64,000 bases of DNA from Gemmatimonadaceae bacterium. Its GTDB lineage: Bacteria; Gemmatimonadota; Gemmatimonadetes; Gemmatimonadales; Gemmatimonadaceae. This document shows, in pieces, positions 16,253 to 20,296 of the stretch. The stretch is from the NCBI GenBank assembly GCA_013813715.1, contig JACCRF010000177.1:1-64000 (forward strand), in the 5' to 3' direction. The first letter of the stretch is position 1. Each line of letters begins with the position of its first letter. The notes beneath the pieces are model-generated. The model did no database searches, had not been told where the DNA came from, and was given only the letters and a program-made list of their open reading frames with translations. The translations under genes were made by a program, and so were the position numbers.

Positions 16253-17764
16253 ATGTCACTTTTCGCCCGGAAGCCGATCGCTGACCTTCTCGTGGAGGAG
16301 GGCCATCCCAACGCGCTGAAGCGCGCGTTGGGTGCCGGTGATCTGATCATGCTTGCCATCGGCGCCGTGATCGGGGCAGGCATTTTCTCGTCGATCGGCA
16401 CGGCTGCGGCCGGCGAGATTCTGCCTTCGGGCGTCGTCGTCCGCTACGGCGCTGGCCCGGCACTGGTGGTCTCGTTCATCCTGCTCGGTGCGGTGTGCGG
16501 CCTCGCTGCGCTCTGCTACGCCGAGCTGGCCTCGATGATTCCGCAGGCCGGAAGCGCCTACGCGTACTCCTATGCCACGCTGGGCGAGATCGTGGCGTGG
16601 ATCATCGGGTGGGATCTGATACTCGAATACGCCGTGGGCAACGTGGCCGTCGCGGTAGCCTGGGCCGGGTATTTCTCATCGTTCCTGTCGGCGTTCGGGA
16701 TATCGTTTCCCGAGTGGGCGACGCACGGGTACCGGGCGGTGACGCTCAGCTCCGATCCCGCGGTGCAGAGTCTACTTCAAACTGCGCCGCGCGTCGCGGG
16801 GGTTCCGATACTGGTGAACATCCCGGCGTTCGCGATCGTAATGGCGATCACCTGGCTTCTCCTGCGCGGCGTGCGTGAGAGCGCGCGGGCGAACAACATC
16901 ATGGTGGTGGTAAAGCTGCTCGTGCTCGGGCTGTTCGTCGTCGTTGGCGCCATGAACATCGACACATCCAACTACGTGCCCTTCGCGCCGAACGGCTGGC
17001 GCGGAATCCATCAGGGCGCGGCGATCGTGTTCTTTGCGTATATCGGGTTCGATGCGATCTCGACGGCGGCCGAAGAGACGAAGAACCCGCAACGCAACAT
17101 GCCGATCGGAATACTCGGCGGGCTCGCCATCTGCACCGTCATCTATGTCATCGTCGGGGCGGTGGCGACGGGAATCGTTCCATATGCGGAGCTCAAAGCG
17201 GCTGACCCGCTGTCGAAGGCGCTGACGATGGCCGGTCTGGAGACCGCGAGCTGGATCGTCGCCTTCGGCGCCGTGGTTTCGCTCACCGCGGTGCTGCTCG
17301 TGTTTCAGTACGGGCAGCCGCGAATCTTCTATGCGATGGGACGTGACGGACTGCTGCCGCGTTGGGCGTCGAAAGTCCATCACAAGTCTCGCGTGCCGCA
17401 CATCACAACTCTGGTAACCGGCGTGGCGGTGGCGCTGGGGGCGCTGTTCGCGGACGAGAACGAGATCTACGACCTCACTAACATCGGGACGCTGTCGGCG
17501 TTCGCGATTGTCTGCATCGGCGTGCTGGTGCTGCGCTATACCGACCCTGACCGGCCGCGGCCATTCCGGGTGCCCTTTGTGTGGCCGGTGACCGTTATCG
17601 GCGCCGGCTCGTGCATTTACATCATGACCGGCCTGCCGGTACGCGCGTGGGAGCGCTTCGGGATCTGGCTCGCCATTGGGATTGCGTTGTATTTCGTGTA
17701 CGGTTTCAGGAACTCGACGCTCAGACGGGGTGTCCGCCCTGAGCGCATCCCTCCGCCGCAATAG
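16253..17764 (+). CDS. APC-superfamily amino acid permease (cationic amino acid transporter type)
   Basis: A 503-residue permease with twelve or so helices. Helix 1 has the APC motif (MLAIGAVIGAGIFSSIG), an extended loop leads into AALCYAELASMIPQAGSAYAYSY, and IGFDAISTAAEETKNPQRN is the helix 6-7 signature of CAT/YfnA-like proteins. Probably imports amino acids with protons. It begins four bases after the pyrophosphatase stop, so the two are co-transcribed. Confidence 0.88.
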   Translation: MSLFARKPIADLLVEEGHPNALKRALGAGDLIMLAIGAVIGAGIFSSIGTAAAGEILPSGVVVRYGAGPALVVSFILLGAVCGLAALCYAELASMIPQAGSAYAYSYATLGEIVAWIIGWDLILEYAVGNVAVAVAWAGYFSSFLSAFGISFPEWATHGYRAVTLSSDPAVQSLLQTAPRVAGVPILVNIPAFAIVMAITWLLLRGVRESARANNIMVVVKLLVLGLFVVVGAMNIDTSNYVPFAPNGWRGIHQGAAIVFFAYIGFDAISTAAEETKNPQRNMPIGILGGLAICTVIYVIVGAVATGIVPYAELKAADPLSKALTMAGLETASWIVAFGAVVSLTAVLLVFQYGQPRIFYAMGRDGLLPRWASKVHHKSRVPHITTLVTGVAVALGALFADENEIYDLTNIGTLSAFAIVCIGVLVLRYTDPDRPRPFRVPFVWPVTVIGAGSCIYIMTGLPVRAWERFGIWLAIGIALYFVYGFRNSTLRRGVRPERIPPPQ

Positions 17765-17768
17765 TCCG

Positions 17769-19025
17769 ATGTTCATCATCTCACAGCTCCGCAGGATCTC
17801 GCTGACCAAGTGGATCCTCATCGCGATGTTCATCGGGGTGTTGATCGGCTACTTCGCGCCCGAATTCTCAGCGTCGCTAAAGGTCTTCTCCAACGTGTTT
17901 CTGAGGATGATCAAGTCCATCATCGTGCCGATCATCTTCGGTACGCTGGTGGTCGGAATCGCCGGTCACGGCGACGACATGAAGCGAGTCGGGCGCCTCG
18001 CCTTCAAGTCGATCATCTACTTCGAGATCGTGACCACGCTGGCATTGTTCATAGGTCTCGCGGCCGCGAACATCACGAGGCCGGGAGACGGAGTGGTGCT
18101 GGCGGCGTCGGCTGAGCAGGGAAAGCAACTCGCAGGCAACACGCCGACCGCATCCGGCTTCATCGAACATGTCGTCCCGACCAGTTTTTTCGAGGCAGCA
18201 ACCAAGAACGACGTCCTCCAGGTAGTCTTCTGGTCGATCCTCTTTGCCGTTGCGCTGTCGCAGGTCCGCGGGCGCCCGAAGGAGATCGTTCTCGCCGGGG
18301 CGGAGGGCATCGCCGAGGTGATGTTCAAGTTCACCGGGATAGTCATGCGATTTGCGCCGATCGGAATCGGCGCGGCGATGGCGGTTACGGTGGGACACAG
18401 CGGCATCGGAGTGCTGGTCAACCTCGGCAAGCTGATACTGACTCTGTACGGCGCGCTGGTCGTGCTCGTCCTGTTCGTGCTGGTGCCAATCGCCTACTTC
18501 TTCAAGGTTCCGATCAGACAGTTTCTGCGGGCGGTGAAGGAGCCGGCGCTGATCGCGTTTTCGACGACGTCGTCAGAAGCCGCGCTGCCGCGGGCGATGC
18601 AGGCGATGGAGTCGATCGGGGTGCCACGGCGCATCGTCGCCTTCGTAATGCCCACCGGGTACTCGTTCAACCTCGACGGAACGACCCTCTACCTTGCAGT
18701 GGCTTCGGTTTTCGCCGCGCAGGCGGCAGGTGTCGACATGACACTGGGGCAGCAGCTCGTGATGATGTTGACGCTGATGCTGACGAGCAAGGGGGTCGCC
18801 GCCGTGCCGCGTGCTTCGCTCGTGATTCTTTCCGGTACACTTGCGTCGTTCGGGCTGCCGCTCGAGGCCGTCGCTCTGATCCTCGGTGTGGACGAACTGA
18901 TGGACATGGCGCGCACGACTGTGAATCTGGTGGGGAACTGCCTTGCGACGGTGGTTATGGCGCGGCTGGAAGGGGAGTTCGTCCCGGTGCCGGATGAGGC
19001 TGCTGTGGAGTCGCTGGCGGCGTAG
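17769..19025 (+). CDS. Dicarboxylate/amino acid:cation symporter (DAACS family)
   Basis: About 418 residues from ATG 17769, two bases after the preceding stop TAG. It has the glutamate/C4-dicarboxylate symporter signatures: the serine-rich re-entrant loop FSTTSSEAALPRAM and the transport-core motif FVMPTGYSFNLDGTTLYLA. The last helix carries MDMARTTVNLVGNCLATVVM. Members take up glutamate, aspartate or C4 acids with H+ or Na+. The frame extends upstream into the permease gene, but the family N-terminus fits the ATG at 17769. Confidence 0.92.
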   Translation: MFIISQLRRISLTKWILIAMFIGVLIGYFAPEFSASLKVFSNVFLRMIKSIIVPIIFGTLVVGIAGHGDDMKRVGRLAFKSIIYFEIVTTLALFIGLAAANITRPGDGVVLAASAEQGKQLAGNTPTASGFIEHVVPTSFFEAATKNDVLQVVFWSILFAVALSQVRGRPKEIVLAGAEGIAEVMFKFTGIVMRFAPIGIGAAMAVTVGHSGIGVLVNLGKLILTLYGALVVLVLFVLVPIAYFFKVPIRQFLRAVKEPALIAFSTTSSEAALPRAMQAMESIGVPRRIVAFVMPTGYSFNLDGTTLYLAVASVFAAQAAGVDMTLGQQLVMMLTLMLTSKGVAAVPRASLVILSGTLASFGLPLEAVALILGVDELMDMARTTVNLVGNCLATVVMARLEGEFVPVPDEAAVESLAA

Positions 19026-19041
19026 CTCTAAGAGCGAGCTG

Positions 19042-19082
19042 GATCAACAGCGGTACTGATCAACAGCGGTACTGATCAACAG
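19042..19082. repeat. Short tandem repeat, 16-bp unit, 2.6 copies
   Basis: The unit GATCAACAGCGGTACT occurs at 19042-19057 and 19058-19073 with no mismatch, followed by a partial third copy GATCAACAG at 19074-19082. It abuts the left arm of the inverted-repeat element starting at 19084 and may mark repeated slippage or insertion at this spot. Confidence 0.85.
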
Positions 19083-19083
19083 C

Positions 19084-19343
19084 TTTACCACAGATGGCAC
19101 AGATGGTCGCAGATGACACAGATGATGAGCGGAACTACAACTGATTCATGGGGAACAACGGAACGTCCTAGTGACCACGGCCGAACAGAAGGCCAGTTCG
19201 ATTTGCTTTACCCGATGGGGCCTGTTGCTTGGAAAGCGTCCCAGCCCGTTTCACAGCCCGCGGTGCTGTCGTTCCTCCTAGTCTATCTGTAGTTCCGCTC
19301 TTCATCTGTGTCATCGGCGACCATCTGCGCATCTGTGGTGAAA
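19084..19343. repeat. Inverted-repeat element, 260 bp, with 56-bp ends
   Basis: The left arm (19084-19139) and right arm (19288-19343) are inverted copies that agree at about 90% with one single-base indel in each. Each arm begins TTT(C)ACCACAGATG, contains three or four ACAGATG-type units spaced 9-10 bp, and ends GAGCGGAACTACA. The 148-bp centre has no gene. The right arm overlaps the 3' end of the sugar kinase and encodes its last 18 or so residues. There is no transposase, and no clear target-site duplication is visible. Confidence 0.85.
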
Positions 19344-20296
19344 TCAGTTGTAGTTGTAGTTGCAATACTCCCGGTACGCCTAGCCAGAGCCGCCGCCCAC
19401 TTGACTGCCCCGCAACAGGGAACGATGTCTCCCTGACGGACCTGAGCGCCTGGCACGGCAGATCTGAGCCGTTGCTCGAGTCGCTTTCGGAGCAGCGATC
19501 CCTTCTGCATCAATCCGCCAGCAAGGGCAACCGGCACGCTGGCGCGGTCATCGCCGAAGAGCCGCGTTGCAAGCGTCCTCACATGAAGCACCAGCTCTTC
19601 AACTGCGATTCCCACGAGGGCGTTGGCTCGCGCGTCGCCGTTTGCGGCCGCGTTCAATACAACCGGGGCGAGCGCCGCAACCTCCTTTCCCGTCGCCGCC
19701 AGCGCCCATGGGATGAGCTCGGTCGGGTCATTCAGCTGGGCGGCGGTGAGAATGGCCCCTGTAAGCTCCGTCGCCGGTTCTCGGCCGTCCGAGGCGGCCG
19801 CAACAATCGCCAGCGCGCGGCGTCCGATCCAACGTCCGCTTCCTTCATCACCCACCGCGGGACCCCAGCCGCCGCAACGCGCGGAAATCCCGGAAGGCCC
19901 ACGCCCATGGGCAATCGAGCCCGTGCCCGAGATCAGAAGGACGCCGGGTCCATTGCCGAAGGCGTCGTAAAGTGCAATCTCGCCGTCGCCGACGACAATG
20001 ATCTGGTCCGCGATCTCGCGATCCTCGAGTGCGGCGACGAGCGCGCGCTGTACGGCGGGGCGGCCGACGCCGGCGACTCCCGCCACGAGCACGCGCGGAC
20101 GCGCTGCTTCGTGCCCCGCCGCGGCAATGGTCTGCCTCACGAGAGCGGCGATCACTTCAGCCGATTCATCGGTGAGGTCCGGAGCAGTAGCTGAACCGGC
20201 TCCAGTCATCTCAGCGACAACATCTCCATCGGCGCCGGCAACCATCACGCGAGTCTTCGAGCCGCCTCCATCGACCCCCGCAACGAGTTGAATCAA
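19283..20296 (-). CDS. BadF/BadG-family sugar kinase (N-acetylglucosamine or MurNAc/GlcNAc kinase type)
   Basis: A 337-residue member of the ASKHA fold. Phosphate-1 motif GVDGGGSKT is at residues 7-15, the second phosphate loop is LISGTGSIAHG, and the adenosine motif is VALAGGLMQKG. Related kinases phosphorylate GlcNAc or MurNAc. It overlaps the upstream symporter gene by four bases (ATGA), so transport and phosphorylation are probably coupled. The natural family end is near AVKWAAALARR. The remaining tail of about 30 residues ends in sequence encoded by the right arm of the inverted-repeat element, so the C-terminus appears to have been replaced or extended. Confidence 0.85.
   Translation of the reverse strand: MIQLVAGVDGGGSKTRVMVAGADGDVVAEMTGAGSATAPDLTDESAEVIAALVRQTIAAAGHEAARPRVLVAGVAGVGRPAVQRALVAALEDREIADQIIVVGDGEIALYDAFGNGPGVLLISGTGSIAHGRGPSGISARCGGWGPAVGDEGSGRWIGRRALAIVAAASDGREPATELTGAILTAAQLNDPTELIPWALAATGKEVAALAPVVLNAAANGDARANALVGIAVEELVLHVRTLATRLFGDDRASVPVALAGGLMQKGSLLRKRLEQRLRSAVPGAQVRQGDIVPCCGAVKWAAALARRTGSIATTTTTDFTTDAQMVADDTDEERNYR

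Follow-up and report, generated by a model that had tools for sequence, protein, structure and literature searches.

A palindromic interspersed repeat with word-array arms encodes the C-terminal tail of a BadF/BadG-type kinase in a Gemmatimonadaceae genome

In the window, the 64,000-nucleotide stretch of Gemmatimonadaceae DNA analysed here (positions 1 to 64,000 of contig JACCRF010000177.1, assembly GCA_013813715.1), a transporter gene and a kinase gene converge on an imperfect palindrome, of which they are the immediate neighbours (Table 1). Each arm of the palindrome has four 9-10-bp CACAGATG-type units and an inner part that is not iterated, with the units of the right arm reading ACCACAGATG-CGCAGATG-GTCGCCGATG-ACACAGATG on the minus strand. 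A repeat search resolves this symmetry into the inverted repeats I1 (19097-19164 with 19263-19330, 78%) and I3 (19084-19096 with 19330-19342, 92%), while blastn aligns the two outer arms with each other over 63 nt at 89%, in good agreement with the 56-bp inverted arms at about 90%, composed of 9-10-bp ACAGATG-type units, that a first-pass annotation of this DNA had described. The distance between the arms is greater here than elsewhere: from outer unit to outer unit the element measures 260 bp, whereas 13 further complete copies in the same genome measure 57-183 bp. The ends of the element are fuzzy and lack sharp definition. At its left edge the previously noted 16-bp tandem repeat is indeed present, as two copies at 19042-19073 and a third, 81% copy at 19074-19089 that extends into the beginning of the left arm, and it probably arose by slippage of the element's left end.

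Table 1. Features of the repeat and its neighbouring genes (positions refer to the window).
Feature	Position	Strand	Basis
Palindromic interspersed repeat, whole element	19084..19343	.	Repeat search, fold z-scores, other copies in the genome
Left outer arm with its array of four 9-10-bp units ACCACAGATG/GCACAGATG/GTCGCAGATG/ACACAGATG	19087..19124	+	Sequence, arm alignment A1
Left inner arm, not iterated, family consensus approximately GGAACTACAACTGATTTAGGGGGAACGACGGAACGTC	19125..19167	+	Arm alignment; model R1 match 19081-19167
Spacer between arms	19168..19262	.	Copy lengths
Right inner arm, holding the kinase stop codon	19263..19302	-	Model R1 match 19263-19340
Right outer arm, four iterated units, in-frame kinase C-terminus	19303..19339	-	Sequence, codon map
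Second copy of inner-arm motif AACTACAACTGATT, directly outside right arm	19342..19355	-	Inverted repeat I2, 14/14; codon map
16-bp tandem repeat GATCAACAGCGGTACT, two units plus a degenerate third merging with the element's left end	19042..19089	+	Repeat search D1
Kinase gene of the BadF/BadG/BcrA/BcrD type, 337 aa with a called TTG start	19283..20296	-	PF01869, E 9.6e-31, residues 7-301
Dicarboxylate symporter gene, convergent with the kinase gene; actual start probably internal, near 17770	17676..19025	+	PF00375, E 4.9e-115; synteny with relatives
Coding overlap, kinase residues 320-337 (TTDAQMVADDTDEERNYR) and TAG stop from the element	19283..19339	-	Codon map

The reading frame of the kinase terminates inside the right arm, and the codon map upholds the earlier proposal that this arm encodes the last 18 or so residues of the protein, namely residues 320-337 together with a TAG stop. 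As codons 312-319 (ATTTTTDF) overlap the second copy of AACTACAACTGATT, element-like sequence may begin as early as residue 312. The kinase domain is complete before this tail, as had been surmised, because the Pfam BcrAD_BadFG match (residues 7-301) covers profile positions 2-271 of 271 by residue 301. The tail itself is most likely a tolerated by-product that has no selected function.

The arm does recur across the genome, a point that the first-pass annotation had proposed to check. Following blastn, a model derived from the sequences of 16 arms (R1) was searched in the 3.73-Mb genome, a draft in 183 contigs, and returned 41 arm matches at E<=1, which were grouped by eye into about 25 places. 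Complete copies have inverted arms and span 57 to 260 bp between their outer units, and there are about five half-copies that lack a recognisable second arm. According to a simple codon-usage gene caller, 21 copies are mainly intergenic, lying between tandem (13), convergent (4) or divergent (4) gene pairs, while an overlap with the 3' end of a gene is apparent from these rough calls in three of the 21, the window's copy included; as the caller sets starts at the most upstream position possible, overlaps with 5' ends are uncertain. The notion that the element rewrites the end of a gene is supported at the kinase, but not as the usual effect of the family, most copies being intergenic. The outermost 10 nt vary among copies yet agree between the arms of a single copy (65.7% versus 45.0% when re-paired, p 4e-5), which suggests that copies are dispersed as entire palindromes; the test is weakened by the manual excision of these words. 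Agreement is confined to these outermost positions. Over 60 nt, the two arms of a copy in this genome resemble each other no more than they resemble the arms of other copies (p 0.13), so continual homogenising of the arms is not claimed and homogenising of whole arms within a copy was set aside. Of 18 congeners sampled, arm matches were found in G003 (20), G013 (12), G006 (6), G007 (4) and G015 (1), with none at E<=1 in the other 13. A pattern for the inner arm allowing up to three mismatches hit just two copies, neither of them outside this genome, and is little informative on spread.

The palindrome lies far above chance. Its minimum free energies on the two strands are -142.7 and -144.8 kcal/mol, compared with averages of -89.2 and -86.7 for shuffled sequences (z -10.7 and -11.8), and none of 200 shuffles folded as well, in line with the internal symmetry that had first drawn attention to it. 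So stable a hairpin on both strands would suit a functional RNA or DNA element at gene ends, either a bidirectional terminator or a stabiliser of mRNA ends, of local origin and never mobile, and a further point in its favour comes from copy C53c, where in the orthologous stretch of G003 and G011 a short G+C-rich hairpin (recognised by eye) takes the place of the repeat between the same convergent genes. We nevertheless regard this explanation as unlikely, since unrelated loci share the sequence and the copies show no bias towards convergent gene pairs, and since their folding energies are similar on both strands, with no consistent lead for the gene strand. A terminator identity was rejected because a scan for intrinsic terminators (a G+C-rich hairpin followed by a T run, with loops of 3-8 only) returned no site in 18900-19500. 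A structured RNA family was likewise rejected, given that none of ten loci matched Rfam 15 above the gathering score, the only match of the window being a sub-threshold one to sR2 (20.4 versus 42 bits). At the C53c locus (L119 and L121, as compared with L118), the repeat may have replaced a terminator, because the relatives have short hairpins between these convergent genes.

Kinase loci that lack the element, the existence of which the first-pass annotation had envisaged, occur in the genus. The kinase is present in 37 of 41 genomes sampled, and in the genus its matches, where they extend into the C-terminal part, break off at residue 297-305 of the 337-residue query, the orthologous proteins ending shortly afterwards with unrelated tails. 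In 10 congeners (G001, G002, G004, G005, G006, G009, G012, G013, G016 and G018) the kinase and symporter genes form a convergent, repeat-free pair with -131 to +50 bp between their stop codons, as opposed to 257 bp here, and the tail is common to no congener. The loci in G011 and G014 were left out of this comparison for a broken kinase frame, while that in G003 (L034) is an exception among congeners, its two stops lying 815 bp apart with other inserted sequence. Repeat-free orthologous sites are likewise seen for copies C53c and C174a, with the repeat found in no orthologue of C174a examined. As the gene pairs are tail to tail and repeat-free, and homology to the kinase ends at 297-305, the repeat was most likely inserted at the kinase gene, and an insertion in this lineage is the most likely, and the simplest, reading of the repeat-free sites. 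That the window instead preserves an ancestral repeat lost from the relatives seems to us highly improbable, for although some related genomes carry the same family and single losses are possible, the congeners share the compact repeat-free convergent layout, and many independent losses together with restored kinase ends would thus be needed.

The interpretation that we favour, and consider probable, is that a non-autonomous hairpin-forming repeat, with arrays of the CACNGATG word as its outer arms, inserted at the end of the kinase gene and supplies its last 18 (perhaps 26) codons and a new stop. Under this scheme, the element would have entered between the two convergent genes and displaced the original end and stop of the kinase, such that translation would continue 18 codons into the repeat before meeting the new stop. 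The copies would have spread as whole palindromic units, presumably mobilised in trans by an enzyme other than the Y1/RAYT transposase in these genomes, and if the mRNAs of the two genes are affected at all, this would be due to the long hairpin, as has been proposed for ERIC-type repeats.

Movement, which we infer from the dispersed copies and the repeat-free sites, is well supported, and to this extent the first-pass description of a mobile element stands, although neither a target-site duplication nor a mobilising enzyme was found. Across 14 copies no duplication was detected, the longest shared flank word being 5.14 nt versus 5.01 nt in re-paired flanks (p 0.32), a comparison in which short duplications would be missed given the fuzzy ends. 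Similarly, no long-spaced arm pair that might represent an autonomous partner with the same arms occurs among the matches in this genome, from which insertion sequences may be missing because the assembly is a draft in 183 contigs. A candidate partner in G049, an arm pair about 1.35 kb apart, was discarded as an IS3-type insertion with its own ends inside a palindrome. An insertion-sequence transposase acting in trans is a possible mover.

A more specific proposal is that of a REPIN or BIME, in which paired REP sequences are moved by a RAYT (Y1) transposase. The present repeats resemble REPINs (PMC3116915, PMC2817692) in being inverted doublets that form hairpins and are dispersed in extragenic positions, with singlets, here solo arms, in the same genome. 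However, each REP is defined by a GT(A/G)G head and a small G+C-rich palindrome (PMC2817692), whereas the arm consensus here (ACCACAGATGACACAGATGGACAC...) has no such head, and the arms are much longer and are arrays of words, not each a small palindrome. Searches for Y1_Tnp (PF01797) that recovered their positive controls gave no match in the genome of the window (G000), nor in the repeat-rich G003, G013 and G049. The Y1/RAYT transposase was found in 21 of 61 genomes, and because it is absent from the window's own and the repeat-rich genomes and present in the repeat-poor G006 and G015, a RAYT is not the mover here, leaving a REPIN or BIME a very improbable identity for the element.

Other short repeats offer closer or more distant parallels. 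Rickettsia palindromic elements (RPE) insert in protein-coding genes and lie within reading frames, unlike the present repeat, most copies of which are intergenic, and we know of no sequence relation between the two. What they have in common is a palindromic element forming a long stem-loop, RPE being palindromes of 105-146 bp (PMC2229807). As in bacterial MITEs such as Correia/NEMIS and RUP (PMC2229807), the repeat is non-autonomous, short and dispersed, has inverted repeats and is mostly intergenic, and the combination of short length, inverted repeats and several dispersed copies that is used to recognise MITEs is found here (57-260 bp, about 25 places). It differs from them in being mostly palindromic and not A+T-rich, and may differ further in that no TA ends were noted, no target-site duplication was detected at its fuzzy ends and no matching insertion sequence was found in the draft assembly. 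We thus describe it as a MITE-like short palindromic interspersed repeat, and claim membership in no named family.

The nearest precedent for the kinase tail is provided by the RU-1 (ERIC) repeats of Erwinia, where such repeats have been joined to enzyme genes at their 3' ends and the usual stop codon has been lost, the fusion genes including those for the amidase ECA3499 and the L-threonine 3-dehydrogenase ECA0168 (PMC2759123). There, as here, a conserved enzyme gene carries a short palindromic repeat at its 3' end that encodes a C-terminal tail, with shorter homologues elsewhere (PMC2759123). Published cases thus exist in which ERIC-type repeats add a C-terminus, so that events of this kind are known, and the kinase tail is a clean example of how short repeats can lengthen proteins. 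The two cases, compared by their descriptions, differ in phylum and in the arms of iterated 9-10-bp words, which the account does not appear to describe for ERIC (PMC2759123). What appears to be new is the family with iterated-word arms, for which no description was found in the open-licence papers searched, whether of the words or of such repeats in Gemmatimonadota, nor in Rfam.

Another view is that the words are DNA-uptake-like or protein-binding words, inverted clusters of which form hairpins by chance, and short words that differ between genomes would be consistent with it. Uptake words are mostly single, however, and outside the element the window holds 4 copies of ACAGATG versus 5.6 expected and 2 of CACAGATG versus 1.4, which amounts to no over-representation. 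Inverted uptake words do form repeat families, as in Hin-1, Nem-4 and Pam-1 (PMC2267715), but in the window, where counts were made, there is no excess of single words, and the idea was abandoned as scarcely credible for this element.

Related palindromes occur across the Gemmatimonadota with other words, including ACAGAGG, ACGGATG and ACTGAGG. We searched 298 genomes of the phylum for the pattern CACNGAKGNCACNGAKG, taking the same pattern reversed as control. Forward and reverse matches numbered 126 and 142 in G049 (control 0 and 0), 117 and 108 in G218 (control 0 and 1), 112 and 95 in G075 (control 0 and 0) and 82 and 77 in G303 (control 0 and 0), while many of the 298 genomes had none; copies in other genomes were looked at as examples. 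A plasmid search with a G049 repeat returns Gemmatirosa kalamazoonensis, whose plasmid NZ_CP007130.1 appears to correspond to a contig of G049, which points to G049 being this member of the Gemmatimonadaceae, with more than 250 word matches. Its repeats are nested palindromes, in which an inner array of the word ACCACAGAGGACACGGAGGACAC is often surrounded by an outer CCGCAGAGGG array. In the stretches viewed (L212-L221) such palindromes are dense, with CCGCAGAGGG outside and CACAGAGGA inside, and in L212 an IS3-type element of two ORFs sits within one of them. In G243 the word is CACGGATG. A copy in the congener G006 (L104, ~1500-1690) shows CACTGAGG in the units of its two arms but retains a recognisable inner part (GGAACTGCAATTAAGGGGAACTACG), which suggests that the word is altered as a block.

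Beyond the phylum, palindromes of the ACCACAGAGGACACGGAGGGCACAGAGG type are also present between genes on Bacteroides plasmids, and in those of Bacteroides ovatus and B. finegoldii (L222 and L223, ~1500-1580) these intergenic word-array palindromes are almost identical in sequence to those of Gemmatirosa. We tentatively raise the possibility, which we would place at somewhat below even, of an undescribed superfamily that crosses phyla and spreads by a non-RAYT route, the arms of which are tandem arrays of one 9-10-bp word (CAGATG, CAGAGG, CGGATG, CTGAGG and others) that differs by genome or family but is alike along both arms and across copies. The word-array palindromes may all have a common origin or may have arisen repeatedly from short words. 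Some Gemmatimonadota are rich in repeats with iterated-word arms, which also occur on Bacteroides plasmids, and the transposase of REPINs is missing from the repeat-rich genomes checked. The dense copies in the cultured, essentially complete genome of Gemmatirosa kalamazoonensis make both the mover and the likeness of the words directly testable.

One-sided arrays of such words were also encountered. An exact pattern scan of genome contigs returned solely a one-sided array in a Patescibacteria MAG (L061, 5840-5950), composed of CATCTGTGGT/CATCTGTGTC units and with no inverted partner in that stretch. Word arrays were seen at 94 matches in viral contigs (L225-L304), 77 of which show no inverted partner in the 600 nt downstream. 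In 41 the array is directly preceded by a possible start codon, giving N-termini such as TTEDTEGTE, with only 18 of these frames reaching at least 60 codons; alternatively, the viral arrays may be the ends of genes encoded by the opposite strand.
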